Below, one piece after another: positions 5,628 through 47,965 of a stretch of 64,000 bases of DNA. Numbering within the stretch: position 1 is the stretch's first letter; every line of letters begins with the position of its first letter. Made by a program: the position numbers and the translations under genes. The stretch is from Geosiphon pyriformis (lineage: Eukaryota; Glomeromycota; Glomeromycetes; Archaeosporales; Geosiphonaceae), in NCBI GenBank assembly GCA_016748015.1, contig JAAOMT010000085.1:104967-168966 (forward strand). The letters are read 5' to 3'. Under the pieces are notes generated by a model. That model made no database searches and was not told the origin of the DNA. It saw only the letters and a program-made list of their open reading frames with translations.

Positions 5628-5738
5628 TATTGTTTTGTTTGACCTGAATGGCTGGTCATGTGTAGAAAATGCATAATTTACATTTAGTTTAGATCAATTA
5701 TATAATGTATTATATAAACATATAAAAAAAAAAAAACA
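5628..5738 (+). repeat. LINE 3' UTR and A-rich tail (copy A)
   Basis: It follows the ORF2 stop and carries the family 3' module (GGCTGGTCATGTGTAGAAAA, then a TTTAGTTTAGAT motif and a GTATTA block) before a run of A. The same module ends copies B, C, D, E and two orphan tails near 54.1-54.5 kb. Confidence 0.75.
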
Positions 5739-10429: not shown

Positions 10430-10581
10430 TATTTTATTTTATTTTTTATTTTTTTTATTAATGTTTAACAAGTGAGGCCCAAAAGCCACCTAGTGCAATA
10501 CATTAAACTAAGCAATCTAAACTAAGTGCTAATCATGCACTTTCTACACGTGACCAACCACTTGGACCAATTAGAGCAACA

Positions 10582-13500
10582 CTATAAATCTATCAGAACA
10601 GAAACCACACCATTTATACCAGAAAAAAAGCAGCTATGTTCATGAAAACCAAAACAGACACCAACCACCTCGGAAATCCCAAGCAACCTAATCATCCCAG
10701 CAGAAAACATGTATGACAAACCATGAATCACAAGATACACAGAACCATCAAGTAGAATTAAACTGCCTTTTTCCATCAAAGCCCTATATTTAGCTCTAAC
10801 CACTCAAATATCCAAGCAGTAAGCAGTACCCAATTCTCGAACAAAATCAACAATAAACTTGCCCACAACCTTGGTATTACCTAGAATAGATGAAGCTTCC
10901 TGAACCCAATCTCTGAACACAAAACCTTTGCCCACAGTAGTATACAACACATTATCAGATGTGCACAGAGAAAGCACCTGTGAAACACGAGACGAATGCA
11001 AGTCCAATCCAGAAACACTTTGTCACTTGACCAGATGAGACTTAAGAATACTCTTACAAGCATCAAAATTAAATGTGCAAATGAAGAAATGGTCGGAACT
11101 TTCCACCTCACCACAATGCAGACATGAGACACTTGGGTAAATCTTACTATACAGACATTTTCACACAGCAACTAGGAGATGGTAGTGAAGAGCCTTTAAA
11201 AAATAAGAGCACAAACCAGCCATAGATTTACTGGTAAAGCCAGCTGCCATATGGGAGTCAGGATGCCACACTAAAGCAGTATGAAACCAGTCCACATTAC
11301 CAAGCAAACTGTTATCAACAACGTTGAAACCAGAACCAAACTCCTAGTGAGCCTGATTAATAGACCTGAAAATCTCACAAGCAAAATAACGAACATTTCC
11401 AGACACTGTCTCCCCAGTAGCCATGATAAATCTCTCTCTAACCAAAACAGGAAGCACCAAAGAAGAGCTTGCAGCTAGACCAACCAACTTATTAGCATAC
11501 TCATTACCTACAACATCTGAATGTCCTTTTATCTTATGCCAAGAAACAATAAGCTGCTTATCTCTAATTAAATTGACAATGCCATGTCACTCCATCCAAC
11601 AGTGGTTGTGGAAATCCAGAGACACCAGAGCAGATTCAGCCACACATACATCCAATGCAGCCTAACTGTCTGAATAAACCACCACAGAACTGTCAAGAGA
11701 AACACACTTTAATGTCAAAGCAATCGCCAGCAGTTTTACCATAGTCAAAGACACCAATCCACCAATCTTAACACCAATATCCATGTCCAGATCTGAGAAA
11801 TAAGCAGCAGCACCACATTTCATTTCACATGAACCCAAATCTCTCAATGATCTATCAGTGTAGACATTGACTACCCTTATATTTGCTGAAGAGAGACAAT
11901 GGCTCAATCTGGAAACTACACCTGAACTGCAAACATTCATATCCCATGAATCTTTAATGCGCAAATCATCAGAAGTAGAAGATTGATTCAAAAAATTACA
12001 AATCAAAGTGAACCAATGAGGGGTGAGGCCCCTCGGATCAAGTCTCTTCCAATGACGAAAGCTTTTTCAATCAAAAATTAAACTTTTTTTGATATATAAC
12101 TGCTCAGCAAAGGGGACCCAAACTTTTTGAGAAATAAAGAGACATTATAAAACAAAAAAGCACTTAGGACTGCAGATATTGGTGTTCCACCAAAAAATCA
12201 GAATGCAGAAACAGAGAGATTGCCAAGAGACATGCCACAGTCCAAAAAATTCTAACAACTCCTGCCAAAAAATTATTGACCAGACTGACATGCAACCTAA
12301 TTGGACAACATAAAAGATAAATAGATGACTAACCCAAGACTTGAAGATCCAGAGATCTATGATTGAACAAATGACCAAGAATACCATCAGCGTTTGAGAA
12401 ACACAACACAGAAGCCACCTTGTATTCAGTTTGCAACTGCTCAAAAGATCTTAAACCATACAAAAAAGGATGATAAAGGGTCTCATTGGGAAAGTCTCTT
12501 GGAAGACCAGCTTTAAGCCTTAACCCCTTCTTGATCAATGTATCCCACTTCATACACACATTCCTGGAGACAAAGCTGAACTGAGTCCTATAACTGATAA
12601 TTGGTTGTAACACAGCTAATACTAAATAAAAAAACTGCTTGTCTGAAATAGCTTTCTTGAGAACCAAATTGACAAAAAACTTGACATCCATGTGTGCCTT
12701 AGCCAAGCTTGGTTTGGACAATCTCTCAGATGACAAATAAATGCCAAGATATCAATAAGACTTTTTTTTGCAAGCAATTGAAATTGGCAGATCACTAATT
12801 GACAATGAAGTATTACTAACTCTCTGATTAATAGAAATGGCTACAGTTTTTTCATTATTGATAAAAATGTTATTTATCTTAAAAAATTCACTTGCTGTGT
12901 CCAGGATATACTGAGTGGCAGCCTGACTGCTTCTCACCCAGATGGTATTATCCATGAATACACCAGCAGCCAGAAAAGAAGTCAAACTGCCTTGGTTTTC
13001 TATTCTGCTAGTCTTAGCTACAAATTTAGTATCAATTCAGTAACCACACAAACTTTTCTGTCTTTTGACCTCACACAAAAGGGGGTCATAAAAAATTCTC
13101 CACAGCAAAGGAAAGAAAACCTCACCCTGATCAAGACTATCATGCACCCAGTAGTCATCTGTTAGACCAAAATCAGTCATAATCTGGTTAACGCAGTTAT
13201 TGTGAATTAAACCAAAAAATATAATAAAATGCCTGCACATTTTGATCTGAACCAAACTATTATGCAAGTAATGCCAACCTACAAAGTTATAGGCTTTATG
13301 CATATCTTGTAACACAAGCCAAAGCTTACAATCCTTTTCCAAAGTGTCTTTAACAACTGAACCAATGGCAAAAATAGGAGACTAAGTGGTCGTTCTTTTA
13401 AGCACTAAAAAATTGTTCTCACGAAGTACTGCATGCTGAAAAAATTCTGTCAGACAACAACTTAGAAAGAATCTTATGGGCAGTCTCAATTAAAGCAATT

Positions 13501-15251
13501 GGCCTAGTATTTGTTAAGACACCCCTTCACTCATAGGGCTTGGGAATCATTGACACCCAAGCTTCCTTCCAACAATGGGGAATTAACTTACATGCCAAAC
13601 AAATATTCAGAAGATCCAGAAGCAAGCCTAACACAGAATCATTACAATGTTTCCAAAGTTCATTTGAAATGCCAAACAAGCCAGCAGCTTTACCATTAGG
13701 CAAATTTTTAATTACACATATCAAGTCATTCAAACTGATAGCATTTATTACACCCAAAAAAGCATTATTATCAACATAATCTAATGGCAGGTATTGATGT
13801 TACCACAAATTGGAAACACTTCTCAGCATGGCCCTCTTTCTTATTCAGCCCTCTATTATACTATCAACCTTATTTTTAACCTCTACCAAGTCCAAAATCA
13901 AGCTGCCATCAGAGACTAAATGATCTAACACCACTTTGTGGAATGGGCATTCCAAAACACTATGGATCATATGGCCTTTGTTGACCACAAAACTCTCCAT
14001 CTTTCTTTCAATAGCTGATCTAATGTCCAACTCCTTGGCTTGCAAAGACTTGGCAAGCTTAAAGGCACAATAATACCTCCTCATGTCACAAAGAGCAGAA
14101 TGGACATGATTAAAATTTGCACCAAAACTCACAAGATCACAAACAACAGAAGTTTTGTCACTATTCATAGAAATTTAGCATCTTAATAGAGACTCAAATC
14201 TGCTGGAGTCTGCCTTGTAAGAAGCCTTGACAATTTTTGACACCAAAACCTCCAAGTTATGCAACTTAGAAGACTCTTTGGTAAACATCCCATCATAACC
14301 CTTAAACCATTTCTTCTTGAAAGCACCATTAGCTGAAAAAACCATCACTTTGTAAACAGTATCCCACATAGTATTCAAATCAGAAAACTTCTTAGCAGCC
14401 TCAAATTCGTCTAAAAACATGACAGCATTGGCTGCAGTAGCATCTTTAAACTCACCCCATTTTGCTATATCTGCACTTTTGACATCAAACTTCCAATGAT
14501 CTTTATTCACCTGCTTGCATATTGAACTTAAACAGACATTGAGCAAACCACCCAAACCCACGGAAGCAGATACAGCTTTGTGGTCAGTATCAAAATATTC
14601 CTTGACATTGGCCACACTATCATCTGTTACAGCATTGACCAAACTCGAAGAAATGAAAATGTAGTCAAGAGCTTTAGTGACACTGCAGGAATTGGTTCAC
14701 GTAGGTGTCTTAACAAATAAACTTCCCCCTAAAAAATCAACTAAATCCAAATCAAAGCATTTCTTGAAGCTAGCACACTTTTAGAACCCATCTTTGTTAA
14801 AATCACCACCCAAAATAACAAAGAAGGACTCGTTTACTGCCTTTGTAATGAGAAAGTTGATTTCACCAGCCTAAGAGAACCAAACCACCGATAACACACC
14901 AGCATAGAGTCCCAAAATTAACACAGAAAGATTATTCTTGAAGAGTAATTTGAGAGAAAGGAGACAACCAGGAATCTTGGAAACCTTACATACATGTTTT
15001 ACCAAAGAAATGTCCATGATAATCACCACACCAGAACCCAAATGACCAAAGTCCAAACCAGAGGTGAAAACCCAAACACCATCAAATTTATTCATAATCC
15101 ATGGGTGGATCTTGCCCTTCAACTTAGTCTCAATAACAACAGAAATCAAATTGTTCATCTCTTTATGCCAACATATTACATTATTCTGTTTTGTAGAATT
15201 ATTTATACCCCTAACATTGCATGTGGCAATCTTCCAAACTAGACTGGTCAT
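10582..15251 (-). pseudogene. LINE B ORF2 (endonuclease-RT-RNase H)
   Basis: Begins MTSLVWKIATCNVRGINN, a typical APE-endonuclease start. The endonuclease runs to about 14500 (DTDHKAV motif near 14590). RT lies at about 13760-12750, with the thumb below it; the active-site box at 12958-12947 reads M-D-N. Motif A near 13290 reads KAYN where D is expected. RNase H near 11890-11480 keeps YTD and YSDS but is broken after YSDS. A C-terminal Cys/His motif follows near 11110-11040, and the last open stretch ends at 10582. Stops and frameshifts split it into about ten blocks. Confidence 0.85.
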
Positions 15252-15397
15252 TGAGAAAGAGATTTGGGAGATGCATTGCCAGCCAAAATCGAACCATTAA
15301 ATCTCGCTGTAAGACTTAGAACTGAGGCAAAAAGTCCTTCCAACATGCTTTCCAATCTTTTTACTTCAGTAAAAGCAGAAGAGTTGAGAGTATTGAC
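15248..15397 (-). pseudogene. LINE B ORF1 C-terminal fragment
   Basis: Encodes an open stretch matching the end of ORF1 in copy C (common core LE-MLEGLFASV-SL, ending in SLSQ-stop). The stop TGA (15250-15248 on the minus strand) overlaps the ORF2 ATG (15251-15249). Only the final ~50 residues remain; upstream sequence is replaced by copy C. Confidence 0.75.
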
Positions 15398-17014
15398 ATG
15401 GAGGAGGAGTGCTTGGTTGAGGAAACCAGTGTTGTCTATGGTGAGAATGGTGCTTTTACAGGAGAGGATCCTAATCAAATGCCTAAAAGTTTGTGTGTAA
15501 AGACCAAGAAGATATTAAGAAAGCCTCTGGGTGTGATTGATTATGGTACTGTCAATGCAGAAGATGACGTGTTAGACAGTTCATTCCTTTTCCCACCCCT
15601 TTTACCTATTAAACTGTCTATTCAAGTGTCTGTTCGCAAATTTTTTGCTTTGGATATTAATCTCGTGGCTGTTGCTGGGAAATCATCTCAGGAAAAATTG
15701 AACTTTGTCAAAAAAAATTTTTCAGGTGTGAATGGTTTTGGGGGGGTCTCTGCTCCCTCAAAATTTGGTGGAATTATCCAGACATCTTTCACTTTCAAAA
15801 AGGTGATGATGGCAGCTGCTTAATTGGCAAATGATTGTAGTGTTATGGTAAACACCAATCTTAAGTGCCCCATCAACAATCATATGAATCGGGCAATTGT
15901 GTTGAAAGAAATTCCTGTGGAAACTTCCATCAAGGCAGTGCATGCAGCCATTTCTGAATTTGGACTTATTAAGTTGATCAAAATACAGTTGGTGAGTCTA
16001 TGACAAAAGGCGATTATTGAATTAGAAGATCAAATTTAGGCTGATCTCTTGGCAGCTAAGTAGTCTGTTCTTATTGGGAAAGATGCAGTGCATGTGGCCC
16101 GGGCCGATATTAACAAACAAATGTGGGATGCCAGAGATGAGTTTAGGACTTTGCTTTACACTTTCCCTATAGACACCACCACTCATGATCTTTGGGACTT
16201 TATTGGTTCAGTTGGTGGGAAAACATGTGTTATTGAACGCAGCTCTGTCAGTTATGTCTGGGCATACTGTGCCACTGTGTGCTTTGATTCTGAGGGTAGC
16301 CTTATTTAGACAATGGCAAACACTCCTGTTATAAAAGACGTTGGTCTCCGTTGGTCTCATTTGACCACTGCACTGTGCTCAATTTGCAGAAATTCCGGTC
16401 ATACTTCTCTCACTTGTCGTACTGCTGGTGCATCCTCAAGTCCTAGGAGCAAGAGAGCTCTTCTTTCAGCTCAAGATCAGCTCCGTCTGGCTAAGATATA
16501 TGAAAAAAAATCTGCTCCCGTTTCCCACCCTTTGGCTTTTGGTGGAAAAACCTGGGCCTCTGTGGTTGGTAAACCACTTCCATTAGCGTCATTTAGTGGT
16601 TCAGCTCAATCTGGTTTCGTATTTTATGGTAAACCTTTCTTGACTGTTAGTGGTGAATTGAAAGACCATTTGAAGAATATTGAGAGCAGTCTTGTCAGCC
16701 TTGTGGGACAAATTGGTAAGTTGGCTAAGAGGTTGGACTCATTCGTGTTGGCAGTTTTCCAGCCTAGCCCTGGATGTCAACTGCTGGTGACCCCCCCATC
16801 ACAGAATTAAGGGGAGGATATAGTGATGAGAGTGGGTTTGGATGATGCCACTAGTGACAAGACTGCTGCCGTTACAGGTTCAACTGCCTCACCTGAGGTT
16901 GTGAAATTGGAAAACATGTTGGAAGGTCTCTTTGCTTCAGTCATGAGCCTATTGGCGTGCTTGGATGGTTTGGCTTTGGCAGGTGGTGCTCTTTCTTTAC
17001 CTCTTTCTCAATGA
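15398..17014 (+). pseudogene. LINE C ORF1, gag-like zinc-knuckle protein
   Basis: Starts at an ATG three bases after the junction with copy B. Order: low-complexity acidic N-terminus; a conserved SVRKFFALDINLVAVAGKSS block near 15630-15690; an RRM-like/LINE-ORF1 region (LKEIPVETSIKAVHAAISEF near 15905-15965); and an intact CX2CX4HX4C zinc knuckle (CSICRNSGHTSLTC) at 16376-16417. A predicted helical stretch precedes the natural stop. Premature stops near 15823, 16036, 16062, 16309 and 16810 look like CAA/CAG or TGG decay. The intact protein would coat LINE RNA. Its TGA at 17012-17014 overlaps the ORF2 start. Confidence 0.85.
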
Positions 17015-20000
17015 ATGGTCTGGTGTGAAAAATTGCTACGTGTAATGTTCATGGGTTGAACAATCCTGTGAAGCAAGATGATGTCATTCATTGGCATAGA
17101 AATATGGGTAATTTAGTTTCTATTTTTACTGAGTTAAAGCTTAAAAGAAAAGTTCATCTGTGGTTGGCCAACAAATTTGATGGTGTTCGGGTTTTTACTT
17201 CTGGTCTGGATTCTGGTTCTTTGGGTGCTGGGGTGTTAATTGTCATGAATTCTTCTTTGGCAAGGCATGTTTTCAAGGTTTCTGAAGTGCCCGGCTGGCT
17301 TCTCTCCATCAAACTTCTCTTCAAAAATAAACTTTTGGTTTCTGTTTTGGGTCTCTATGCTGGTGCCTCTTCAAGTGTCTGATTCTCACAGGCTGGTGAC
17401 ATCAATTTTTTGATTGCTAAGACGGTAAATGAATCTTCTTTTGTGGTCTTGGGTGGCAACTTCAATGAGGATGGCGTTCGTAAGAGTGCCAGTTTCAAAA
17501 AGTGCTTTGATCTGGGTCTGGTTAATGCCTTGGGTGGAAGTGTGCTTGTGAAGACGCCGACATGAGATAACTCTTATGGTGTTGTCAAGACTATTGACTA
17601 TATGTTTGTCTCTTCGAGCTTGGTCAATGCTGTAGTGGATCATGGAGTGACTGGGATTGAGGATTTTTTTGATACTGATCATAAGGCTGTTTCTGTTTCT
17701 GTGGGTTTAGGTGGCTTGCTTGACTCTCAGCTGAATTTGATACACAAGCAAGCTAATAAAGATTGTTGGAAGTTCAATTTCAGGAATGCTGGTGAGAAAG
17801 GGTGGGAACAATTTTAAGGATGCTATGTTGGCCAATGGCCTAATGTTCTCGAGTGATTTCACTGCCTCTGCAAAATCTTCAGATTTAGATGCTATGTGGG
17901 ACATTGTACACAAAGTAATGGTTCTCTCAGCAGTTGGGACATTCAAAAAGAAATGGTTTAAGGGTCATGATGAGGTTTTTACCAAGAGTTCTTCTAGGTT
18001 TCACAAGCTTGAGTTGCTGGTATCCAAGCTGGTTAAGGTGTTTCATTTGTTGTCTAGTGTGGAATTTGCGTCATTGTTGAATACATGAGAGAAGCTTAAT
18101 GTCAATGGTGCTTTGGTGGTAAAGTCTTTATTTCTTTCAAACTCCAGTTTTGACAGGATTCGCTTGGCTCTGGCTAAAGCAAGAAAGTCTTACTGCTCTA
18201 CTAAGTTGCTGGAATTCAAACGTGCTGAGGAATCCCATATTAGGGTGGCTATTGATAGAAAAATAGAAAGTTTTGAATCAGACAAGGGTCACACTATTAG
18301 GAGTGTTTTGGAGCATCCCTTTCGCAAAGTGGTACTGGATCATTTGGTTGTGAGTGACGAGTTGATTTTGGAGCCCAGCTCAGTCAAGGCTAGGGTGGAT
18401 GGGATCATAGAAGACTGGACCAGGAAGCGCAAAGTGGTGCCAGATATCTTCGATATTTGGTCTCGCTAGTACAAGCCTTTGGAGTATGTTTTTGATGGTG
18501 CATTTTCTGGTGTAATGTGTCCTGTTGGTTTCAATGAGTTGTTCAGTGTGGTTTTTGGTCTGCCTGAGAACAAGATTGCTGGTCTTTCTGGGATTTCAAA
18601 CGAGCTCTAGAAACACTGTGACAGATCAATTTTGGACATGTTTTTGGTGCTTTTAAATTCTTGTTTGATTTGTGAGTCAATACCTAGTGCTTGGAAGGAA
18701 GCCTGGGTCTCAATGATCTCTAAGCCATATGAGTGGGAAGAGGTTTTTATGAACACCCGATCTATTGTCTTGATTGAAACTGCCCACAAGATTCTTTCCA
18801 AGATTCTTTCAGATAGGATCTCATTGGCTTGTAGTACTTTTGATGTTCTGCGTGGGAACAATTTTTCGGTATTAAAGGGTATGACAACACAGTCTCTTAT
18901 TTTTGCCATTGGTTCAGTTATTGAGAATGCTTTGGAGAAAAATCGTGAACTCTGGTTGGTCTTGCAAGACATGTAAAAGGCTTATGATTCTGTTGGGTGG
19001 GAACACCTTTAGGACAGTTTGGTTAGGATAAAGATGTGTAGCAGGTTTATTAGGTTCTTTGGTGGTATCTACAGTAGTTGCATTAACAGAGTTATGACAA
19101 ATTTTGGTTTGACGGATGGGTACGTGGTGCATGATGGCTTGGACCAGGGGGAGGTGTTCTCACTACTCCTCTGGTGCATATTTTATAATCCCCTTTTGTG
19201 TAAAGTTAAGAGACAGGCGGATGGGTGTGGCTATAGATTGAATTCTCATTTTATTTCTGGATGTGGTTATGCTGAGTCTTGGGCTAGTGTATCTTCATTT
19301 TTTGCAGCAGATGCCTTTGTTGATAATACTATATAGGTTGGCAGCAATCAAAGTACCACACAACACATTCTCAACATTGCTAGTGAATTTTTCAATATCA
19401 ATGACATCTCAATTAATAATGATAAGACTGTTGCCATTCCTATCAATTGTGATGGTACGGCTTCCTTTTTGCTGATCAGCAGGTCACTTATTTCTATTGC
19501 CAAGAAGGGGGAATCACATCGATATTTGGGGATTTATTTGTCAACTGAGGGTCTTTTGAAGCCTAGTTTGGCTAAGACACATTCTGATGTCTGGTTTTTT
19601 TCTAATTTAGTCCTGAAAAAGGCAGTATCTGATAAGCAACTTTCATATTTGGTTTTGGCGGTCCTCTTTTTTATCATTAGATATAGAACACAGTTCAGTT
19701 ACATTCCTATTAGTTCTTGTAAAAAGTGGGACACTTTAATTCGTAAGGGCTTGAGATTTAAGTCTGGTCTGCCATGTGATTTCCCCAATGATACAATTCA
19801 TCATCTCTCTCTGTATGGTTTGAAGACTTTTGAGCAAGTTCAAGCTAAGAGCAAGTTGGCTTCGGTTGTTTCTTTTGCAAACTCTGTTGGGATTTTGGGG
19901 CATCTATTTTTTCACCAGTCACATGATCTGCAGGTCCTCTGCTGGTGCCTGCTACATCCATTGCAGTGTCCGGTTCATGTCAAAGTTAATTCTCTAAACA

Positions 20001-21700
20001 ATTTTCTGGTGAGTGTGGTGCATATTTTCTCTGGATGTGATTTGTCATTAGGTGGCTCTCTAACTAGTGCTTTTCGTCATCAGGGTGGAACTCCTATGTC
20101 TCTTGTTCTTGGTGAATCAAATTATGTCAAGAGTGTTTTTTCACTTCGGCATTATGGGGTTGTTTTTGTAGACCAGCTACAGAACCAAAATGGGACTGTT
20201 TTTGAGTGGAAGACCATCAAACGGTGGAAGTGGTTAGACCCACGTGGTCCGGTTCCTGTCTGGTTTGAGCTGTCAGTTTGTTTTCTTAGTGGCATGTCTT
20301 CTCTTTCTGTCTGCTCCACACTTTTGGCTGATCACGGCTCTTCGGATGTTCTTCAGTCTCATGAATTTGGCATCATTGGTACCGGTTTACTCAATTCTAA
20401 TGTTGGTCATTTTTCCATTTACACAGATGGATCTCTAAGTGATTTGGAGACTGTTGATATGAAAGCTGGGGCTGCTGTTTTCTTTGAGGACATTGGTATG
20501 GGTTTGGGTGTGGGGGTATTCGGTTTGATGTTTTCTACCTTGATGGAACTGCAGGCTATTGCTCTGGCGCTTGAGTGCATCCCTTCTTCTTATTCGGTCA
20601 ACTTGTTCTCGAACAGTTAGGCTGCTTTGAATGCTTGCAGGTTGGAAATGAAATTGGTTTGCCCAGATTTTAGGAATTGGTGTTGGATTGAATGCCACCA
20701 TATTGTTAATGTTATTCATCGTAAGAATTTAAATGTTAATTGGTGTAAAGTAAAAAGACACTCAAAGGTTTTAGGCAATGAACGAGCTAATAAGTTGGCC
20801 AGGGCTGCAGCTCTCTCTGGTTGGCATCTGCCCCATTCTGTTGATGAATGCTATCTTAGGAGTGGAGGAGCAGCCATTTTTGGTAATTCTAGACATTTCA
20901 TTCGGGACATTTTTTGGTCAGTTTATTGTGCACATTGGGAAATCAGTTGTGGTATGGGGGTGGTGGTGGATAGTCTGCATACAGATATTGATTGTTTTAG
21001 GTCGTCGCTGGTTTGGCATCTGGATTCTCACATGGCTGCTGGCTTCACTAGCAAGCGAACTGCTGGTTTCCAGACTTACTTTATGAAGGCATTGTACCAT
21101 CGGCTCCCTGTTGCCATGTGTAAGCAGCTTTATGATAAGTGATACTCCAGTGTAATGTGTTTGTTTTGCGGTGATGTTGAGGTCTCAGACCATGTGTTTT
21201 CTTGTTCATTTAATGCCAATGGTCATGCTCAGTTGTTGGACACTCATGCAGTAGTTTGGGGTGTGTGCTCCAGTTTGGCTCATTTTTCTTCAGGTGTCTT
21301 GCAGCTAATGTCTACTTGTGTATCTGACATTTCAGTTAGTACTGCTCTATACAAAGGTTTTGTTTTCAAGGATTGGTTTCATGAGTCTGTTTTTGTCTTC
21401 AAGAATTCCAGGATAGCAGGTCAGAACATTGTGGCCTTTGTGTGTGAGTTTAACTTGGCTTTTTGGGAAGACATTTGATTGGTTTGTGCCAAGCACTGTG
21501 CTTTTATGGAAAAGAATGGGCTTATTTTGTGTGATGGGTCAGTTCCTGTCTCGATTTCTGGGCTTTCTTTAGGGCTGTCATTTGGTGTGACTCGGCTGCT
21601 GGGTGTTGCTAAGGTGATTGGTGTTGGTTTTGGATTCCGTAAGTCTTGTTTGTTTTTTTCAGGGATAGGAAATGAGGTTTCTGTTCATATAGGTGCTTAG
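17011..21700 (+). pseudogene. LINE C ORF2, endonuclease-RT-RNase H polyprotein
   Basis: The ATG at 17011 overlaps the ORF1 stop. APE endonuclease: TCNVHGLNN near 17040, TELKLK near 17130, LGLYAG near 17350, GGNFNED near 17460, KTIDYMF near 17590 and DTDHKAV near 17675. RT: AWKEAWVSMISKPYEW near 18690; motif A LQDM-stop-KAYDSV near 18965-18990 keeps Asp; the box at 19316-19327 reads F-V-D-N. RNase HI: IYTDGSLS near 20420 and MELQAIALALE near 20545, but the second Asp is Asn (FSNS) and NERADKLA has become NERANKLA. A Cys/His motif CLFCGDVEVSDHVFSC follows near 21158-21205. Stops occur throughout, so it is inactive. Confidence 0.88.
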
Positions 21701-21838
21701 TGTTGTCTTGATTGGTCCGAGTGGCTGGTCACATGTAGATAATGCATGATTCACATCTAGTTTAGATTATTTGTATGATGTATTGCACTAGGCAGTGTTT
21801 GGACTTTGCTCGTTAAATGTTAATAATAAAAAAATAGT
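21701..21838 (+). repeat. LINE 3' UTR and tail (copy C)
   Basis: It carries the family 3' module, with GAGTGGCTGGTCACATGTAG, TGCATGATTCACATCTAG and GATGTATTGCACTAGGC, then TCGTTAAATGTTAATAATAA and an A-run. It is the best copy for defining the 3' end recognised during target-primed reverse transcription. Confidence 0.8.
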
Positions 21839-22940: not shown

Positions 22941-25170
22941 AAAAAATTCATAATTATAACCAAAATAAAGAATAAAAAAGCTGTACCTAATATTTTTCTT
23001 GAAATATCTAATAAAATTTCAACCAAAAAAACTTTTTCTGTTGTAAAAACAGCTAAACAGAATGTTTTAGAAGTTTTTTTTTTATCTAATAATCATGAAA
23101 AGCTGTTTTTAATAACTATTAAAGTATTTTCCTCATTTTTGACTGGTTTTTTATTAATTAAAATCCTCTCAAAAAAACATACTTAGATTAATTTTAGTGT
23201 TGTCTTCATTTTATTTAAGAGCCTAAAAGTTTTTAATAATAGATTAATTAACAAGCTGGTCTTTTTTTCTATAGCTTTTAATTTTAATATTATTAATATT
23301 ATCTTTTTAAAAAATATGATTAAAAAGACCAAAGATTCAAAAAAGTGAAGACAGTTGCTTACTTTTGCTATTATTACATCAAATTTTTTTGTGATTTTTA
23401 ATAAAATCTCTGTTGTATTATCTAAGATAGACCAAAATTAACTACTAACTCTATTGTTAAATATGATATTCTTTAGTAGATTATTACTAATTTTAAAAAC
23501 AAAACAACTATTTTCTGTAAAGTTATCTGTTCTTAAGAATTGAACTAACCAAATAAAAACTGAATCATTCTTTTTGCTGGTTTTTAGTGCTGTTATAAAT
23601 GGTATTTAGAAAACTATTTTTAATTATCAAAGATTTGCTGAATGAATGGCCTCTATTTTGATGCTTTATGCTATTTTTAAGATCAAATTGGCTTATGTTA
23701 AGACTGTTTTTTAGTTTGTACATGGTTTTTTAAATACAAAATCAGTATTAAAAGACAATATAAAGTTCTTTTGCATAGAGTTTGCTTCTTAAGAGTTTTT
23801 AAAAGCTGTCTTTTTACTTGAGCCTGCAAGTTCTGTTTATTTAATTACTCTTAAAATTATTAAATCTTTAGTAATTTCTGAATTTGGTTCCTTTTTTACT
23901 GCTGTTGTACTGTATAATATGCCTTTAAATGTGTCTGCTGCTGATATTAAAATAGCTTTTAGTGTATTTGGTAAGATTGTCTGTATAGTATTAAAGCCTG
24001 TTAGTATTTGGCAATATGTATTTGTTTATTTTGAGAAACTGAACTTTGTTATATTTATTTTAAATTATTGATCAGTTTTGGTGAATAAAAATAGTATTAG
24101 GATTTTTTTTTTAATGAATTAAAATAAGAGTATTTTGTCTCATAATAGGTTTAAGACCAAGTTAATTAATTTTTTTTCTGATTGTACTGTTTTTAAAATC
24201 AGTAATATAATTTTTCAAATTAATGGTTAGACATGTTTTATTTCTTGTTTTTCTAATTTTGGTCATTATTTTCAGTTTGTTCTGGTTATATTTGGATTTC
24301 AAATGGATTTGAATATGACTGTAGTTAAAACTAGTACATTAAAAAAGTGCTATATTTAGTAGAAAACTTCTGGTTGTTGGCATTGTTTTAGATATTAAAA
24401 AATAGACCATCTGACTGTGGATTATAAAGTGTTTTTATCTTCTCTTTTTAAAACTTCTAAGGTATTTATACTTTATTTTATTAGCTCTAAATTTTATGCC
24501 AAAATTTCTGTTCTTTTGAGCTTCTTTGAGTTTTTATCTCTAACAACTCCTATTTTTTCTTCTGTTATTGTTGGTAATTTTTTAGTATTGTCTTAATTGT
24601 CTTCTTTAGAATCTGATCTGGCCAAACTTTCTGTACTAGTCAGATCAATTGTCAAGTCTATTGGCTTTTTGGTTATTATATTTAAACAGTTTATTAATAA
24701 TAATTTGGTTTTAAGCAGTGTTTTTAGTCTTAAAGTTAATAAACTTAAGATTTATCTGAGTTTTTTTAACAAAGTTGTTGGTAAGTTAAAGAAGAAAATA
24801 GTTTTATTAAAAAAAAATATTATATATATAATGTTAATATAACTGGTAATTTAGATTCTGTAGTTTGTATTAATAATGATATATTTTTAATTTAATGTTT
24901 CTTTGAATACATAAGCTCAATAATATTAAAACTAATCCTTTAAAAACAGCTAAATAGCTGGTTGAATTAATTTTTTATAGTATTAGATTATTTGATATAA
25001 TTCAAAAAATGTTGGTTTTGGGTAAGTTTATTTTTACTATAACAATATAGTATAGTCTAAACTGATTTAAGTAGCTAATTATATATAAAAAATGTATAAA
25101 CTATACTTAATTTAAAACACTTAGTTTGTTTCAAAGTTTTAAGCAATAATTGGACTATACTCATTAAACT
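22941..25170 (+). mobile_element. Element E: half-LINE (ORF1 only), strongly decayed
   Basis: It aligns end to end with element D minus its solo LTR: the same 5' region (AATTTCAACC near 23020), the same ORF1 blocks (near 23690, 23890-24000, 24230-24400 and 24590-24800) and the same 3' module at about 25040-25165 (AAGTAGCTAATTATATAT, then TCATTAAACTTTAAAAA). No endonuclease or RT lies between the ORF1 end and the 3' module. The zinc knuckle near 24375-24425 keeps His but has lost Cys residues (TGT to TAT). Stops are very frequent. Confidence 0.75.
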
Positions 25171-27895
25171 TTAAAAAAAAAATTTGGTTGTATTTTAATT
25201 AAATTAGTTTTAATTTTTAATGATAGTATTTTATGTGCTTTTATAAGATTTAATTATTATTTTTTATAAAATTTATATTAAAATTGGTTTTTATTTAAAA
25301 ATAAATAATAATAACAATATATTTTTTTTTAATAATTTATTTATTACTATTTTTGTTCTTTTAATACTGAAATAATTTATATAATTATGTATATACTATA
25401 GTTAATAATTATATATATAACTATATGTATTATTTAAAAAATTATTATTATTATTTTTAAAAAAATTTTCGAATTTGTGATTTTTTTCTGAAAACAATAA
25501 AAAACATATTGTTTATAAAAAAAAAGTTATAATTCCAAAATAATTTTATAATTTTTGCCAAAAAATTGTTCATAGAATTGATCTTTAACTTAATAAAAAA
25601 CTATAGTAAGTAATTAAGAAACTAATATAAAATCTGTAAATCCAAAAATCTATAATTAAAAAATTAGCTAAAAATATTATTAGTATTTAAAAAAATTACA
25701 ACCAAACAATCTTATTTTCTGTTTGTATTTGTTTAAAAATTTTTAAGTTATATAAAAAAAATAGTAAATAGTCTTATTTAAAAGTTTTTGGTAGTTTAAA
25801 TTTTGTTTTTGAATCTTTTTTAATTAATATATTTTACTTATTACATATATGCTTAGAAATAAAACTAAATTATTTCTTATAACTAACTATAAATTACAAT
25901 ATTACTAAGATTAAATAAAAGAATTATTTGTCTAAAATAGTTTTTTTCAAAATTATATTAGCAAAAAACTTTAAAATTAAATATGTTTTTATTATATTAA
26001 GTTTAAATAGACTATTTAATAATAATAAAATATCTAAATACTTATAAAACTTATTTTTTTTATTAAGATTAATAAACTGCTAATTAACAAAAAAACACTA
26101 ATTTTTTAATTAATAAAAATTATCATAATTTTATTATTATTTATTAAAATATTATTTAATAAAAAGAATTTATTTATATTATTTAGAATCTATTAAAATA
26201 TAAATTGGCTGTTTTTATTTAAATTATGTTATTAATAAATATATTAACTATAAAAAATAAAATAAAATAAATTTATTCTTTAATTCTGCTAATTTTAATA
26301 ACAAACTTAATATTAATTTAATAATTATATATATATTTTTGTTTCTTAATTTTATATAAAAAAATATTGTAAAAAATTTTAATAAAAAAATTTTATTTTA
26401 ATTTAATCTATTATATATTTATTTATTAAACTAAAATTTGTTATTACTCTGTTAGTTTTATTATTATAAATGCTGTCTAAAAACTTAATAAATTTATTAT
26501 ATATTTTTATTTTGATTAAATTATTTTTTAAATAATATCAATTAACAAAATTATAAGCTTTGTACATATTTTGTAAAATTAATCATAATTTATAATTTTT
26601 TTAAAATGTTTTCTATTACTAAATCAACTATAAAAATCAGAAATTAAATTAAAATATTTTTTAACACAAAAAAATTATTTCTATATAAGACATTAAATTT
26701 GTTATAAGCTAATAAAATCTTATTAAAAAATCTTTGAAAGAATTTTTTAAGCAGTTTTAATTAAGACAATAAATCTAATATTAATTAAAACTCTTTTTTA
26801 TTTATATGATTTGAAAACTATAAATACTTAAGTCTTTTTTTAAAATTAAAAATTTAATTTGTATACTAAATAAAAATTTAAAAACATTTTTAAAATCGAA
26901 TTATTACAATATTTTCAAAGTTTATTAGAGATTTTTAATAATTTTGCAGCTTTTTTATTTGGCAAATTTATGATTATATCTCTTATTTTATCAAATTTAA
27001 TAAAATTTATAACTTTAAAAAAAGCTTTATTAACATAAATTAAAAATAAATATTAATAATACTATAAATCAAAAATTTTGCTTTAAATTTTTTTTTTTAG
27101 TTTAACTTTTTATAATTTTATTTATCTTAAATTTAATTTTCTTAAAATTCAAAACCAGTTTTTTCTAATAACTAAATAATTTAAAATTATTTTCTAAAAA
27201 AAATACTTTAAAATACTTTAATATATTTTTAATAATATAACTTTTGTTAATTTCAAAGTTTTTTATTTATTTATTAATAGCAGCTTTAATTTTTAAATTC
27301 TTAGCTTTTTAAAAATTTTTTATATTGAACAAAATAAATTTTATATTATTAAAACTAATATTTAAATCTAATAAAAACTAAAATTTTAATATATTATTAT
27401 TATTAACAAATGTTTAATAGCTTAACAAATAATTAAGTTTGGTATTTAACTTTATTTTTAATGTTTTATCAATCTTAAAAACCAGTAATTTAAATTTATA
27501 AAACTAAAAAAAAACTTTAATAAATGCACTATTAAATTTTTTATATTAATACTTAATAAATATTTTATTTATTAAAAAACAAACTATTTTTTAAATAATA
27601 TTTTATATTGTATTTATATTTAAAAACTTATTTATAATGATAAATTTATTAGAATACATATTAATATAACAGCTTTGAAATAATTTTACTTAAATTATTA
27701 ATATTTTTGAAATTAAACTTCTAATAGTTTTTGTTAATCTGTTTAAAAAAAAAATCAACTATATATTCAGCAAATTATTTAAAAAAAAAACAGTTTAGTA
27801 ATTAGTATTGAAATAATTATTAATCTCTAAAACATTTTATTTAATTATTATATTAATAAAATTAATAAAAATAAAACAATATAAAAAATTTAAAA
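25171..27895 (-). mobile_element. LINE copy F, extreme AT decay
   Basis: Minus-strand relic that aligns with LINE B from the RNase H/thumb region (25500-25740 matches about 12100-12460 of B) through RT (26530-26600 matches the motif A region) to the end of the endonuclease (27700-27840 matches about 14450-14600). The RT box at 26239-26228 reads F-I-N-N. Almost every C/G that can become T/A has done so. The upstream end abuts element D at about 27.9 kb. Confidence 0.7.
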
Positions 27896-28097
27896 AAATC
27901 AACTTTTTGTCTCTTTAATTTTATGATCATAATTAGAGCAAAAAGTAAAAAAGCTGTATCTAATATCTAATAAAATTTCAACCAAAGGTGCTCTTTCTGT
28001 TGTAAAAGCAACTAGACAAAACATTTTAGAAGCCTTTTCTTTATCCAGTAATTGTGATAAGCTGTTTTTAGTAGCCACTAAAACAATTTCCTCATCT

Positions 28098-31044
28098 TTG
28101 GCTGGTTTTTTACCAATCAAAATTCCCTTGAAGAAACACACTTGGATCAGTTTCAGTGTTGTCTCTACTCTAACTAAGAGCCCAAAAGTTTTTAATAATA
28201 GACCAATTAACAAGCTGGTCTTTTTTTCTATAGTTTTTATATCTGGTGCTGCTAACACCTCTTTTTTAAAAAAATGGTCAAAAAAACCAAAAGTTCAGAA
28301 AAGTGGGAGCAGTCACTTGCCTCTGCTATTGTTATACTGAACCTCTTTGTGGTTCCCAATGAGATCTTAAATGAGATCTCCATAATATTATCCAGCATAT
28401 TGTTCAAAATAAGTCTAGATCAACCACTGGCTGTATTGCCAAATATGGTGTCTTCTGATAGATTATCACCAGTTTTAGAAGTAAAACAATTTCCTTCTGT
28501 TGGATCACCTGTTCTTGGGAACTGGGCTGATCAAATGGAAACTAAATCATCTCTTTTTCTAGTTTCTGGTGCTATTTCTGGTGGTACTTAAGAAACTATT
28601 ACTAGTCATTAAAGGTTTGCTGGATGGGTGGTCTTCATTCTGGTGCTTGGTACTACTTTTAAGATTAAATTGGCTTATGTTAAGGCTGTTTTTCAGTCAG
28701 TACATGGTTTTTTGGGTGCAAAGTCAGTATCAAAAAACAATGTGAAGCTGTTTTGTGTGGAGTTTGCTTCTCAAATGTCTTTGGATACTGTATTCTTGGT
28801 TGAGCTTACAAGCTCTATACATTTGGCCACCCTCAAAATTGCCAAGTCTTTGGTAATTTCTGAGTCTGGTTTCCCTTCTACTGCTGTTGCACTGCATTGT
28901 TACTGGAGATTTTTGGTCTTTTTTCTTGAATGTTGTAAATGTCTGTTGGTTGCAAATTCATGTTTTCTAGATGTAGTTGAACCTCCAGTAACTGAATTTA
29001 TCTTCAAATTATCTCCTATAATTTGAACTGCTGGGCTTATAAGTGGAATAACCAATTCTATGCCAGTTATTTTGTATAGTTACATTGTAGTAAACATCAA
29101 CTCTTTTTCAAGAATTGCTTGTCTGGAAGCTCATTAAAATGTGTAGTTACTTTGTTGTGAAAGTCAACTCTTCTATAAGAATCTTATCTGTAGGCTACCC
29201 TAATGATTATAAAAAAAAAATAAAAGAAAATAAAAGAAATGTAAAAGAAATAGAATTCTGTCAAGAAAAACGTTTTCTATCCAGGCCTGGAGTTACTAAT
29301 AGTTTACTAAAATTGGTAGCTAATTAATTTCAAAATGTTAGTTGGGTTTTGAAAATTTTTTAAATGCAATAATTAAAAAATTTGGTTTTTCAAATTATTT
29401 GATATTTTTTTTTTGTGTGTATAGGAATGGTTCTAAGTGATAAATCTAAAGTAAGATATATTTTCTTGAAGAGAAAAGTTCTTCTTTTATACAATTTGTT
29501 ATAGTACTAGTCTATGAACTTGCACTTTTTCTTTTTGCTCAAATTTCAGCAAACTAAAGATATATTTTGATGAACTACAAGTTATTTCACTGAACTATTG
29601 ATTAATTTGAGTAAACTATTTATAATTTTGGTGAATTTTTATAAATTTTGGCAAATTTCATATAAATTTTGGCAAATTTCTGTAAATTTCGGCAAATTTT
29701 AGAATGTTACAAAGTTCAGAGTATTGTGTAATTTGATCATTTTACTTTTTGTTATACTAATTGGATTATTAATTAAATCGTGATATGTGATAAATTGATT
29801 AAATAATAAGTGATAATTTGAATTGATATTAATATATTAATTAATAATAGGAATTATAAAGATAATTTTATGCTAATTAATAGCTAAAATTCTACTGGTA
29901 ACAGCATGATGTGCCCTTGGGTGTGTCTGCTGCTGACATTAAGACAGCTTTCAGTGTGTTTGGTAATATTACTCATGTTGTGCTGAAGTTTGCTGGCGTT
30001 TGGCAATATGTGGTGGTTTATTTTAAAAAGTTGGACTCTGCTGTGTTTGCTTTGAATCATTGATCAGTCTTGGTGGACAAGAATAGTGTTAGAATCCTTC
30101 CTTTGGTAAATCAAAATGAGACTATTTTGTCTCATAATAAGTTTAAAACCAAGTTGGTCAATCTTTCTTCTGAATGCACAGCTTTTGAAATCAGTGATAT
30201 GATTTCTCAAGTTGGTTGTCAGACATGTTTTATCCCTTATTCTCTTGAGTTTGGTTGTTGTTTCCAGTTTGCTTTGGTCACATTTGGTTCCCAAGCTGAT
30301 TTGGACTCTGTTGTTGTCAAAACTAGTACATTGAGAAAATGTCATATTTAATAAAAAACTCCTGGTTGTCGGTGTTGTTTCAAGTGTCAAGAACTGGGCT
30401 ATCTGGCTGCAGACTGTAAGGTTTCTTTATCTTCTTCTCCCAAGTTTCCCAAGGTGTTCACACCACATTTTGTTGGTCTTAAGTTTTATGCCAAGGCTTC
30501 TGCTCCTTTAGACTTTTCTGGATTTCCACCTTTGTTATCTCTTGTTTCTTCTCCAGTTGTTGTTGGTGATCCTTTAGTGCTATTCCAACTGTCTTCTTTG
30601 GAATCTGATTTGACTAAGCTTTCTGTTTTGGTTAAGTCTATTGTTAAGTCTATTGGCTTTCTGGTTACAATTTTTGAACAGTTTATTAATAGTGATTTGG
30701 TTTTAAGTAGTGTTCTTGGTCTTAGGATCAATGAAGTTTTGGTGCATATGGGTTTTTTTAGTAGAACTGTTAGTAAGTTGGGGAGAAAAGTGGTTTCTTT
30801 AAAAAAAGAATGCTGTATAAAGGACATTGATATGTCTGATAATTTAGAGCTTCCACCTGTTGTGAATGATGAAGTGTTTTCCAATTTAATGTCTCTTTGG
30901 GAGCATAAGTCTGTTGATGTTAAAACTAATCCCTTTAAAACTGCTGAGTGGCTAATTGGTTTGGTTTCTTGCAGTGCAACTTTGTTTTCTGTTATTCAAA
31001 AAATGTCATCTTTGGATAAGTTTTCTTCTGTAGTATTAGCATAG
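28098..31044 (+). pseudogene. Element D ORF1, zinc-knuckle gag-like protein
   Basis: Coding blocks run 28098-28270, 28274-28591, 28628-28897, then (after the LTR) 29904-30351 and 30352-31044. The middle block resembles the RRM-like region of LINE ORF1 (FGSQADLDSVVVKTSTLRKC near 30285-30345). The knuckle at 30376-30417 is C-F-K-C-x4-Y-x4-C, with Tyr (TAT, 30400-30402) where the family needs His. The C-terminal third is Ser/Leu-rich, likely helical or coiled (30590-31040). Premature stops near 28588, 30061 and 30350 correspond to Trp/Gln codons. The intact protein would bind element RNA. The opposite-strand open frame over 27899-28258 is taken as a shadow. Confidence 0.72.
28898..29903. repeat. 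Solo LTR with 4-bp target-site duplication
   Basis: 1,006 bp starting TGTTAC and ending GTAACA (6-bp inverted termini), flanked by GCAT at 28894-28897 and again at 29904-29907. Removing the LTR and one GCAT restores an unbroken frame that matches the empty site in element E (about 23900-23925). A partial copy lies at 8879-9659. No internal retroelement sequence remains, so it arose by LTR-LTR recombination. Confidence 0.9.
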
Positions 31045-31289
31045 TGTGTTCTTGACTGGTTTAAGTGGCTAATTACATGTAGAAAATGTATGATTAGCAC
31101 TTAGTTTAAATCGATTCTTCGATGTATTGTTCTAAGTAGCTTTTGGGTCTTACTTGTTAAACTTTAATAAAAAAAAATTAAAAAATAAAACACATAATCA
31201 ATCATTTTTTTAGTATTTTAAAAGTTTTTTTACATGAATGATTTGATAATTAGACTCTTTAACAAAGAATTAATTAAATTTAAGTTAAT

Positions 31290-43385: not shown

Positions 43386-46299
43386 ATAGTATCTTTTTTT
43401 TATAAATACAGTCCAACTGCTATCTAATATATAGAATCAAACTAAGTGGCTCAAACTAAATACAATTCATATTTTTACTATATATAACTAGTTATTTAAG
43501 CCAAACAAAGCAATATTACATATTTATATATATATATACTATTATTTAAACCAGAAAAAAAAGAACACAATTTGCACTTATCAAAACTAACTATAAAGAA
43601 CTCAATAATACCAAGTAATTGAATCATTTTATTTAACAACATAATTATTATAATACAAGACAAGCTTAATATTAAACTATTATTTTTGACCAGTCTAATT
43701 TTTTTTATATTTATTCTATATCTAGATTTTACAAGTTACAACTTTAAATATATTTAACAACAGCAAAAACAGTTTTTCCTCTTTTATTAAAAACTGCAAC
43801 AGCTTTTGCACACTAATTTTTAAACACAAAACTTTTACAAACTACTATATATAAGCTTATATCTAATAAACACATAAAAAAAGTTCTTAAGACAGCAGAA
43901 ATAAAAAAAATGCAAACAATTATCAACAAAATCTACTATTCAGAAGTCTTATTTAAAATGTTTTTGCAAATACCATTATCTTTGGTACAAATAAAAACAT
44001 GGTCTAATAGCTTTATCTTATTATACAGTAAATATAATATATTTAAATACATTTTATTATACAATTTTTTGTTAACTGTTACCAATAGTTATCTATATAC
44101 AGTATTATCAGAGATTTTTGTCAATATTTGTAAACATTTTTTAGCTTAACTGGTAACACACATTATCATGATTATGCTACTAACTATAGTATATTATAAA
44201 TGTATGAACTATTTCAATAAATGGAAAAGTAAAAAGATATATATAATAAAGTCATTAAAAGTAAAAGAAAGTATTGTCATTATTATTTGTTTTTGAGTAA
44301 GAACCAGTCTTAGGTATTTAAAAAAGGAAAGAAAAGTCACATCTCTTTATATGTATTAGAAGCACAACTAATAACAGAAATAAAACCAACTACTTTAATA
44401 AATACATAATCAAAATTTTTTCAATTAGTCATTAAAAGGATGTGGTGTTTAAATATCCACTTTGAAAATAAAGTTATAAGAATTATAAAAAAGATTATGA
44501 AAATCAAACATAACTGAAATAGATTTTGCTTAAACTTTTTATTGTTGAGACTACTTTCTAATAATGTAATACTTTATTACTTATTTTTATATTTAACAAC
44601 TTGTTTGGTAAAACAAGACTTAATGTGAAATAATAATAACACATGATTTGAAAGATCAGAAGTAATAGAATGACTGGAAATAGTGATAACAAGTAAGTAA
44701 AAAATTATAAACAACATAATTTCAAATAGTGATAAGAAATATAAAAAGGCATACTTAAGATTGTAATAACAAATATTTAGAGCATAGAAAAAGGGAAAAA
44801 AAGAGTGAAAGATAGAGGAAAGAACTAACTGCTTACTATAAAACTATAATGAAGAGTTGGCTCAGTATTAAACTAATACTTTTCTGAACTAACAAAGAGG
44901 CTATATATATAGTTAAATTACATCAGATCTATATACTATATTAAAACTATTTAAGATACATCAATTATTTATATATTTTAATTTAATCAATTCATGATAA
45001 ACTTACTTGACATGTTATTTTTCTCAAAGCTAGTGATTTTTAGATGATCAGATTTAGATGGCTAAATCTAGAACATTAATTATAAATCAATGATGCCAAT
45101 TGTAATTATGATTAATATAATCAGAAGTAGATCAATTGATTACATTTTTTGGTAACTATTTTTAACTATTAATTGTAAATTTAGAATGTTAGATTGTTCC
45201 AATAAAGATGTATAAAAATTTTAAAGCATAACAAAATCTGTTGTTATCTAATTACATATATCAATTATTCATTTTTATTGGTGTTTTTTAGTTTGCCAAG
45301 ATTTTTTTGTATCCAACTTAATTAAACTGTTGGATTGTGTTATATTTTTTTGTTGTAATTAGATTGATTGCTAATCATTTATTTTCAGATTGCCAGCTGA
45401 TTTTGTTAATTAAGTATAATAATATAGGTCTTTTTCACATGATTTTAATGTTAATTTCCATTGTATGTGTTGTAATTTTTATATTGAAAAGTGTGAAAAT
45501 TTTCTGGTAATAATAGTTTTTATTAAGTATGTATACAGATTAGCAAATCTTTTATCAATAAATTTAGAAAGCATATACAAGTCAAAATGCCATATTTTTG
45601 TAATAGTTAACAGCATATCTTAAAAATTCATCTGTATAAATCTTAATAAAACTAGACCAAACTTTAAGTAAACACTTTTATATATCAAAAAACTCTTTAG
45701 ATTTCAAAATATTTAAGCCATATGACTTACTAATATTGGCAAAATTAACTGTTAAAAAACTTTTATCACACAAAATCTTAGATGTTATTCAAACCAATAA
45801 GACATAAAGCTCTTAAAATCTAATCTCTTTTATTAATAAAATATTTTCTAATTTATTATATTTTTTTTGTTTAAAAGTTTATTACCAAATACAACTTTAA
45901 ACCACTTTAAAAAATAAACAAAACTATAATAGAAAGTTTTCTTTAAAATATCTAATATTAAAAACTTACTAAAACTATAAAATATATTGTATAAATTAAT
46001 TATTAAGAATAAATTATTGTTCAAAAAAAATTTTACTACTTTAACCAAAAAATTGTTTATTAAACTAACATACAATTTAACAAAAAACTATAAAATATTC
46101 AAAGAAAACCACTTTAAAATTTGCAAATCCAAAAATTTGTGTTTAAACAAATATCCAAAAATACTTAAAACATTAAAAAAAGTAACCAATAAAGCAAATT
46201 TTTTTTCAAATTGCATTTGCTTAAAAAGCTTCAAACTATACAAAAAAAAATAATACAAAGCTTTATTGAAAAAGTTTCATAGCAAATTAACCTTAGTCT
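43386..46299. other. AT-rich repeat-like block, unresolved
   Basis: No complete gene or named element. A CAGTCCAACTGCTATCTAAT sequence at 43410, directly after TA, looks like a pogo/Tigger terminal inverted repeat start; a weak inverse match (CTGTTGGATTG) lies near 45330. Open frames such as 43910-44149 and 45987-46253 have biased composition and no motif I trust. A purine-rich stretch lies near 44620-44840. Confidence 0.35.
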
Positions 46300-47965
46300 T
46301 AAGATTTTTTCTGATTATTATATCTTATTGTTACTTATAAAAATTAGGAATTATAATAGTAAATAAAATAGACATAGTAAAAAAAGAAATTCTAAGATTC
46401 TTTTTGAAGAATCCCAAAATTGCAGAATTCCAGAATTCCAGAATTTCTTTCAAAAAAATTGAAAAATTTCAAAAATCTTGTATAACATAAATTATATATA
46501 TATAATAAAAGTGTTAAAAGCAGAAAAAATATTTAATTCAGTTCAGAACAACAATATTTTTTTCTTTAAAAAATAGTTTTCTATAACTTAAAGTAAAATT
46601 ACATTAATATTAATAAAATATCTAATTATTATCCAATTTATGTTATTATCATTTAATTAAAAATATTAATTATTTTTACACTAACAATACTTCATATTAA
46701 TAGAATCTAATACTTAACTATACTGAACCAATAGCTTTTGATTACAACTATTAACAGAATACTAATTTCTTATTTTTTTTTCTTATTTCTTTTTATTTTT
46801 TTTTATTTTTTTGTGTTTTGTTTCTTTGTTGTTTACTAAATTGATTAAAAAAATTAAGCACTAAATAATTAATGTCAAGAATAGTCTGGTAAAAAACTTA
46901 ATATTATAGGTAATTATATACAATGTTGAAACAAATAACAAACCTGTAACTTGGTGCTCAATAGCTAAAAATGTTGGTAATTTCTAAAGGTTTTGGTTAA
47001 GTTCTTTGTATAATAGACAAAAATTTAATTGATAGTTTCTTCTGTAAATTTTTTTTTTAGCATAATGGCCAGTTTATTCTGGCAGTTGTGCACTTCTGAT
47101 AAACTATCCTTAAATTTTTGTTTTTGTTTCTAGGTTTTTTATCAGATTATTTTTAATATCAAATACTTAATACTTAATCTTTTTAATCAATTAGTAAACA
47201 ACAAAGAAATAAAACAAAAAAAAATAAAAAAATAAAAGAAAATAACAAATTAGTATTCTGTTAATAGTCATAATTAAGAGCTATTAATCTAGTATGATTA
47301 AGTATTGAATTCTATTAACATTTTATGTTAATAATAAGAAAAGTAATTAATATTTTTAATTAAGCAACAATAATATGGATTGGATAGTAATTAGATATTT
47401 TATTAATATTGATATGATTTCACTTCAAATTATAGAAAACTATTTTTTAAAAAGAAAAATAGAAGATAAGTAGTTATTGCTAGCTACTGTTCTGTTTGAG
47501 TTAAATTTTGAATACTTTTTTTGCTTTTAATACTTTTGCTATATATATATAATTCATATTATATAAAATTTCTTGAAATTTTTCAATTTTTTATGGAAAA
47601 TCCTGGAATTCTGCAATTCTGCAATTTTTTAAGGGGAATTTTGGAATTCTGAAATCTTGCAATTTCTCAAGAAAAATTCTGGAATTCTTCTTTTTAATAT
47701 GCCTATTTCTGATTGGTTATTTTATTTATTATTATAATTTCTAATTTTTATGAGTAATACTAAGAATAAGAATAAAAATTTAAAGATAACTTACCAGAAA
47801 AACATAACTGTCAGAATAAATTAACTACCATGCTAAAAAAAAAAATTCATAGAAAAAACTATTAATTAAATCTCTGTTCATTATACAAAAAACTCAACCA
47901 AAACTTTCAGGCTCCAAAACCTTTAGAAATTATCAACATTTCCAGCTATTAAGCACTAAGTTACA
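46300..47965. repeat. Large imperfect inverted repeat (fold-back structure)
   Basis: Arm 46300-46910 is the reverse complement of 47140-47790 over about 600 bp with scattered mismatches. Landmarks include ATTAATAAAATATCTAATTA and GAATACTAATTT..TTATTTT on the left, matching their complements on the right, and a hyphenated GAATTCCAGAATT-rich segment in each arm. Between the arms, 46930-47130 recurs inverted just outside the right arm at 47765-47965. Reversed, that segment gives a short conserved open translation, so it may be decayed coding DNA. It could be a fold-back/MITE-like transposon or two inverted copies of an unknown repeat. Confidence 0.75.

Follow-up and report, generated by a model that had tools for sequence, protein, structure and literature searches.

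Elements D and E, two repeats in a 64-kb stretch of the Geosiphon pyriformis genome (the window), belong to a family that in all probability consists of non-autonomous non-LTR retrotransposons mobilised in trans by LINEs; we call its members half-LINEs and its subfamilies HAL-a to HAL-d. One assembly was examined (124.7 Mb, 406 contigs), in which well over 100 to 150 places share the same layout: a fixed 5' end, a single ORF1 (~708 aa), a UAG stop, a tail of ~119 nt and an A-tail, within about 2.3 kb. Of the 30 copies aligned first, nearly all begin on the same base (ACTCTTTGTCTCCTTAATTTTATG) and reach their 3' end at the same A-tail. The two members in the window have the following features.

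27902-31175, forward strand: element D, a half-LINE of the HAL-a subfamily, beginning with the 5' terminal ACT and ending with the A-tail, as set by family ends and flanks
27902-27946, forward strand: 5' terminal hairpin of D, ACTTTTTG.CTC...GAGCAAAAAGT, with the start codon inside, placed by the fixed 5' end and by pair counts over 38 copies
27923-31044, forward strand: ORF1 of D, decayed (stops, frameshifts, a 1 kb insert), with RRM-like domains and a CCHC knuckle; its stop is the TAG at 31042-31044
28898-29905, no strand assigned: DNA transposon inside D, unrelated and not part of it, missing here in other copies
31042-31160, forward strand: 3' tail module of D, with the stop codon as its start, supported by DNA match, fold and covariance model
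31161-31175, forward strand: A-rich 3' end of D
22941-25182, forward strand: element E, an older, heavily decayed half-LINE with the layout of D, 50-51% identical in amino acids to relatives over about 590 aa
25048-25167, forward strand: 3' tail module of E (covariance model, 81.6 bits, E-value 1e-17)

The sequence-only reading had begun D at 27905, and the 5' end common to the family moves this to 27902. D and E align over their whole length at about 71-73% DNA identity, and the 5' end of E is decayed. The knuckle of D (CFKCQELGYLAADC) is without its histidine, which an intact relative (HCFRCQEMGHLVMDC) retains. Nearly all other copies have no insert where D is split by the DNA transposon of about 1 kb, which has imperfect inverted ends (TGTTACTGGAG / TACTGGTAACA), GCAT flanking both sides, and a relative at 8858-9647 of the window. 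The same type of transposon was seen inside the tails of a half-LINE (L034) and a LINE (L075), and also at L098. An 11-bp 5' terminal hairpin around the start codon is present in the subfamilies seen, its first three pairs being invariant across 38 copies.

A full ORF2 behind this ORF1 would, on the earlier reading, have made D and E internal-deletion derivatives of an autonomous element. Neither endonuclease nor reverse transcriptase (RT) was found behind ORF1 in about 75 distinct junctions from several subfamilies, 52 of which were picked by protein alone, down to 52% amino acid identity, and these copies are without the ORF2 with RT that marks an autonomous LINE. All 40 copies scored in a DNA search with the 3' part of D (the best 40 of 1300 candidates) continue into the tail. 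Because that query itself contains the tail, a protein-only search is the fairer test of what follows ORF1. Searching with ORF1 protein alone gave 64 places among 5659 first-look candidates, and 30 of 30 junctions fetched read as ORF1, stop and tail, the tail of L034 being split by its DNA transposon. Three of three HAL-c junctions had the same order. The HAL-c C-terminal region, used as a query, gave 150 places, and in 22 of 22 further junctions from both protein lists, down to 52% identity, the tail followed the ORF1 stop directly, with tail model E-values of 2e-14 to 4e-30. Each search scored the best-scoring of its 1300 to 5659 first-look candidates, and a rare ORF2-bearing relative could lie outside these. 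All subfamilies have the same ORF1/tail junction, and for this reason an origin of D and E by one deletion each was rejected.

The tail is what the half-LINEs share with complete LINEs. The last 120 bases of D match LINE C at 81% (E-value 8e-27), LINE B at 73% (2e-16) and element E at 70% (1e-10), and no DNA match to the LINEs of the window was found for the coding part of D. A covariance model of the tail, run over the 64 kb, returned six strong places, which are the ends of D (E-value 7e-27), E, LINE B, LINE C and two more LINEs. Together, the DNA and covariance matches exclude chance and bear out the sequence-only reading in that D and E end in the 3' module of LINEs B and C. The LINE features concerned are these.

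15401-21831, forward strand: LINE B, with ORF1, ORF2 (endonuclease-like, RT, RNase H) and 3' tail
21698-21816, forward strand: 3' tail module of LINE B, with the ORF2 stop as its start (covariance model)
10450-15405, reverse strand: LINE C, 5' truncated, with ORF2 and tail
10465-10584, reverse strand: 3' tail module of LINE C (covariance model, E-value 8e-28)
5625-5726, forward strand: 3' tail module of a further LINE, with coding matches at 952-5711 (covariance model)
43399-43518: 3' tail of another further LINE (covariance model)

Pfam matches to RT and RNase H in the LINE B ORF2 were above the cut-off, and the endonuclease match was weak; LINE B is likely of the type that serves as enzyme source for the half-LINEs. 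More decayed LINEs lie at 43399-50647 (reverse strand), 25541-27031 (reverse strand) and 952-5711 (forward strand), and the window holds a nest of LINEs with at least five copies, D and E not counted. Elsewhere, at L088, a LINE tail is broken by a short run of N, either an assembly gap or a withheld stretch, beyond which lies LINE coding sequence.

The conserved tail opens with the UAG stop as its first codon in LINEs as well as in half-LINEs, which explains why the junction sits at the stop codon. RNAalifold, given 33 tails (19 from LINEs and 14 from half-LINEs), predicted a branched fold of 30 pairs common to both. In this fold 96.4% of cells pair, compared with 29-37% when partners are slid, a control that flatters the result because the fold was derived from the alignment on which it was tested; the covariation score reaches 0.48, compared with 0.13 or less, and 94 cells are changed on both sides (compensatory changes) against 37 in shuffles. 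The comparison with shuffles and the magnitude of the effect make it very likely that the shared fold is real.

Comparison of the tails shows that they have been exchanged as modules. In trees whose support values rest on only about 120 columns, HAL-a and HAL-c tails join the LINE-C tails (support 91), while HAL-b and HAL-d tails (the latter being L101-L105 and L109) join the LINE-D tails (support 84). Five chimeric HAL-b copies (L117-L119, L121 and L122) group with LINE-D tails at a support of 97. Their proximal halves are closer to HAL-b (0.78-0.84) than to LINE-D (0.63-0.69), and their distal halves are closer to LINE-D (0.68-0.76) than to HAL-b (0.51-0.56). In addition, one HAL-c-like class of ORF1 occurs with two tails, the main HAL-a tail in L114 and L116 and a second HAL-a tail in L106 and L115. 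These chimeric tails, and the pairing of one ORF1 class with two tail types, indicate from the alignments that half-LINEs exchange the whole tail among themselves and its distal half with LINEs, whether by template switching or by DNA recombination. Group means (0.80 in the distal part versus 0.825 within) hinted at a recent and simple copying of the LINE-C tail by HAL-a; this was rejected, as HAL-a tails are not nested in LINE-C and the two are sister groups.

The ORF1 protein had been described as a zinc-knuckle ORF1 distinct from that of the LINEs, and this is right only insofar as the two have diverged. The half-LINE ORF1 is only about 25% identical to the best LINE ORF1s seen, no resident LINE was found with the near-identical ORF1 expected of a recent parent, and the half-LINE protein has a C-terminal region of its own. 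However, its residues 244-504 align with a LINE ORF1 (hhalign 99.2%, E-value 8.8e-20, 249 columns), both ending at the knuckle, and by this alignment the two are diverged homologues with the same domain order. Pfam matches of an intact HAL-c ORF1 to RRM_1 and CCHC both fell just below the cut-off. A predicted structure of residues 244-504 (mean pLDDT 59) has up to three beta-alpha-beta-beta-alpha-beta units, the third at low confidence, and its best Foldseek matches are tandem-RRM proteins (E-value 6e-5, Z 8.5, 70 residues). The full-length AlphaFold2 model (mean pLDDT 35) is usable for a hint of RRM topology only and gave no significant Foldseek match, and the ORF1 sequence gave a single weak match against the PDB (E-value 0.1).

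The tail and the 3' part of ORF1 distinguish HAL-a (31 copies), to which D belongs, from HAL-b (17 copies), and HAL-c has a C-terminal region unlike the others. One HAL-c copy (C357:145684) is intact, with an uninterrupted ORF of 708 aa, and several other places from the HAL-c search have open frames of more than 700 aa around the match. The fixed differences between HAL-a and HAL-b number 0 in the first 600 nt of ORF1 and 93 in the rest, from which we infer that the 5' part was homogenised across the two subfamilies, via recombination or template switching. Fifty-eight of these 93 differences fall at third codon positions (p 7e-11). Within a subfamily there is no third-position excess, and the differences represent neutral decay, 74% of them being C>T or G>A. 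This contrast shows that ORF1 evolved under purifying selection and that the source copies needed the ORF1 protein, making ORF1 a working part of the element rather than a fossil. The C>T and G>A decay shows no CpA preference of the kind typical of RIP (rates of CA 0.133, CT 0.131, CC 0.160 and CG 0.247 in half-LINE copies L001-L060). A passage in a Rhizophagus paper cites the AM fungus Gigaspora margarita as having no RIP signature (PMC8647823).

The flanks of the copies point to integration by reverse transcription at the target. Among 44 copies, the longest word found both in the 5' flank and downstream of the tail had a mean of 10.0 letters, compared with 6.8 for randomly re-paired flanks, the maximum of 300 permutations being 7.5. 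Judged by this comparison, the words represent target duplications of about 8-14 bp that are significant across the family, which answers the check for target duplications named in the sequence-only reading. Target duplications are expected of target-primed reverse transcription, and the half-LINEs have both of its hallmarks, the A-tail and the duplications. In AT-rich DNA such as that of the window (27% GC), the target duplications of single copies, including that of D, are weak or ambiguous. The D 5' flank AAAAATAAAACA at 27867, which is 12 letters long and lies 23 nt upstream of the D 5' end, recurs at 31181 and is a possible target duplication. An A-rich filler that varies in length, up to about 25 nt, often separates the target duplication from the 5' end, which simple target-primed insertion does not usually produce. 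LINEs and half-LINEs were also found next to each other: at L073, L063 and L096, respectively, a LINE A-tail runs into a half-LINE 5' end, a HAL-c A-tail runs into the 5' start of a LINE, and a LINE ends about 200 bp before a HAL-c copy. Such adjacencies may reflect either insertion into A-tails or template jumping.

Because the tail of the half-LINEs has the same fold as that of the LINEs, a borrowed LINE enzyme is the most likely source of their mobility. The proposal that D and E are non-autonomous, bring their own RNA-binding protein and borrow the LINE enzyme stands as regards the absence of ORF2 from the junctions read, the shared tail and the selected ORF1; the borrowing itself we infer from the tail. 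It is unlikely, in our view, that the shared tail is a mere 3'-processing or poly(A) signal and that another enzyme, for example that of another LINE clade, mobilises the half-LINEs. Such a role for another enzyme would agree with the tails of HAL-c and HAL-d, which have at most about 65% sequence identity to LINE tails sampled from about 38 copies of three lineages, a distance at which we assume recognition by structure, and with the report of other LINE clades in Rhizophagus irregularis, a likely relative (PMC11075540). However, a branched fold of ~119 nt with compensatory changes in both groups far exceeds a poly(A) signal, and chimeric tails between LINEs and half-LINEs exist.

The origin of ORF1 allows two further explanations. 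As this ORF1 is LINE-type, the half-LINEs could be internal-deletion derivatives, amplified later, of an autonomous LINE with the same ORF1, a parent that is extant in the genome or recently was so, and HeT-A and TAHRE provide a precedent, the former being gag-only and the latter complete with a similar gag (PMC5537684). We consider this improbable given the absence of ORF2 across the junctions of several subfamilies, the low identity to the LINE ORF1s seen, the separate C-terminal region, and the divergence of the subfamilies under selection as ORF1-only elements. It is less probable still that an RRM/CCHC gene, domesticated or cellular, acquired a LINE tail on its mRNA and spread as a multi-copy retrogene with ORF1 as passenger cargo. 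Although ORF1 comes without an enzyme, and many host genes too have RRM and CCHC domains, the homology follows the LINE ORF1 with the order of the domains unchanged, purifying selection persisted through the radiation of the subfamilies, and the layout recurs at well over 100 places.

Under trans mobilisation by LINEs, the half-LINE RNA would comprise a short 5' leader with a hairpin at the start codon, one RRM/CCHC ORF and the structured tail of ~119 nt. The ORF1 protein would coat its own RNA, and the LINE endonuclease and RT would recognise the folded tail and copy the RNA via target-primed reverse transcription. By trading its distal tail with LINEs, a half-LINE could stay readable by whichever LINE lineage is active. 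It is conceivable, although we hold this only tentatively, that the half-LINE is no by-product but a long-lived lineage that, with its own selected ORF1, swaps the distal half of its tail with successive LINE lineages and can thereby change the enzyme that it parasitises, and that ORF1 may even serve LINE RNAs in return.

ORF1-only LINEs have already been described in mammals (HAL1) and, as a specialised telomeric element, in flies (HeT-A), and the best reading is that the half-LINEs work like these. HAL1 is a non-autonomous, LINE-derived element with ORF1p only and no RT (PMC5753468, PMC4859970) that arose several times (PMC5753468). Like HAL1, the half-LINEs would be ORF1-only partners of a complete LINE; unlike HAL1, which is described as a derivative of L1, they have an ORF1 remote from the resident LINE ORF1s seen, and they end in a specific structured tail that is shared and exchanged with LINEs, while L1 needs little besides a poly(A) 3' end (PMC3747384). 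HeT-A of Drosophila is a gag-only non-LTR element under selection that is believed to depend on a partner element for its Pol (PMC5537684). The half-LINEs resemble HeT-A (with TART/TAHRE) in their selected, gag-only coding capacity; however, HeT-A inserts at chromosome ends only, without target duplication, while half-LINE copies are found in contig interiors, flanked by target duplications and starting at defined 5' ends, and HeT-A has in TAHRE a complete relative with a similar gag, of which no counterpart was found at the ~75 half-LINE junctions. ORF1 proteins have RNA-binding and chaperone roles, and certain LINEs require a particular 3' structure, which SINEs copy (PMC2881922, PMC3747384), as in stringent-type pairs such as the eel UnaSINE and UnaL2, which have a common 3' end with a structured tail recognised by the LINE RT (PMC3747384). 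The half-LINEs share with such SINEs their non-autonomy and the 3' sequence and structure of a resident LINE, but SINEs are short and non-coding, with a head derived from a small RNA, while half-LINEs are about 2.3 kb long and encode a selected protein of 708 aa. With the LINEs of the same genome (B, C and relatives) they have in common the 3' tail with its embedded stop, the A-tail and a homologous RRM/CCHC ORF1, and they differ from them in that the LINEs carry an ORF2 with endonuclease, RT and RNase H.

We found no description of a fungal ORF1-only LINE in the open-licence literature. Repeat studies of Rhizophagus irregularis report LINE families and many unclassified repeats, and leave ORF1 unmentioned; about two thirds of the repeats in this fungus are reported as unclassified (PMC11075540). 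The half-LINE family may help to classify repeats in AM fungi. A many-copy fungal family with a clearly selected ORF1 also bears on the question of why a parasite of a LINE enzyme carries an ORF1 of its own, and the covarying fold common to LINE and parasite, together with the natural chimeric tails, provides a set of variants for mapping recognition by the LINE enzyme.
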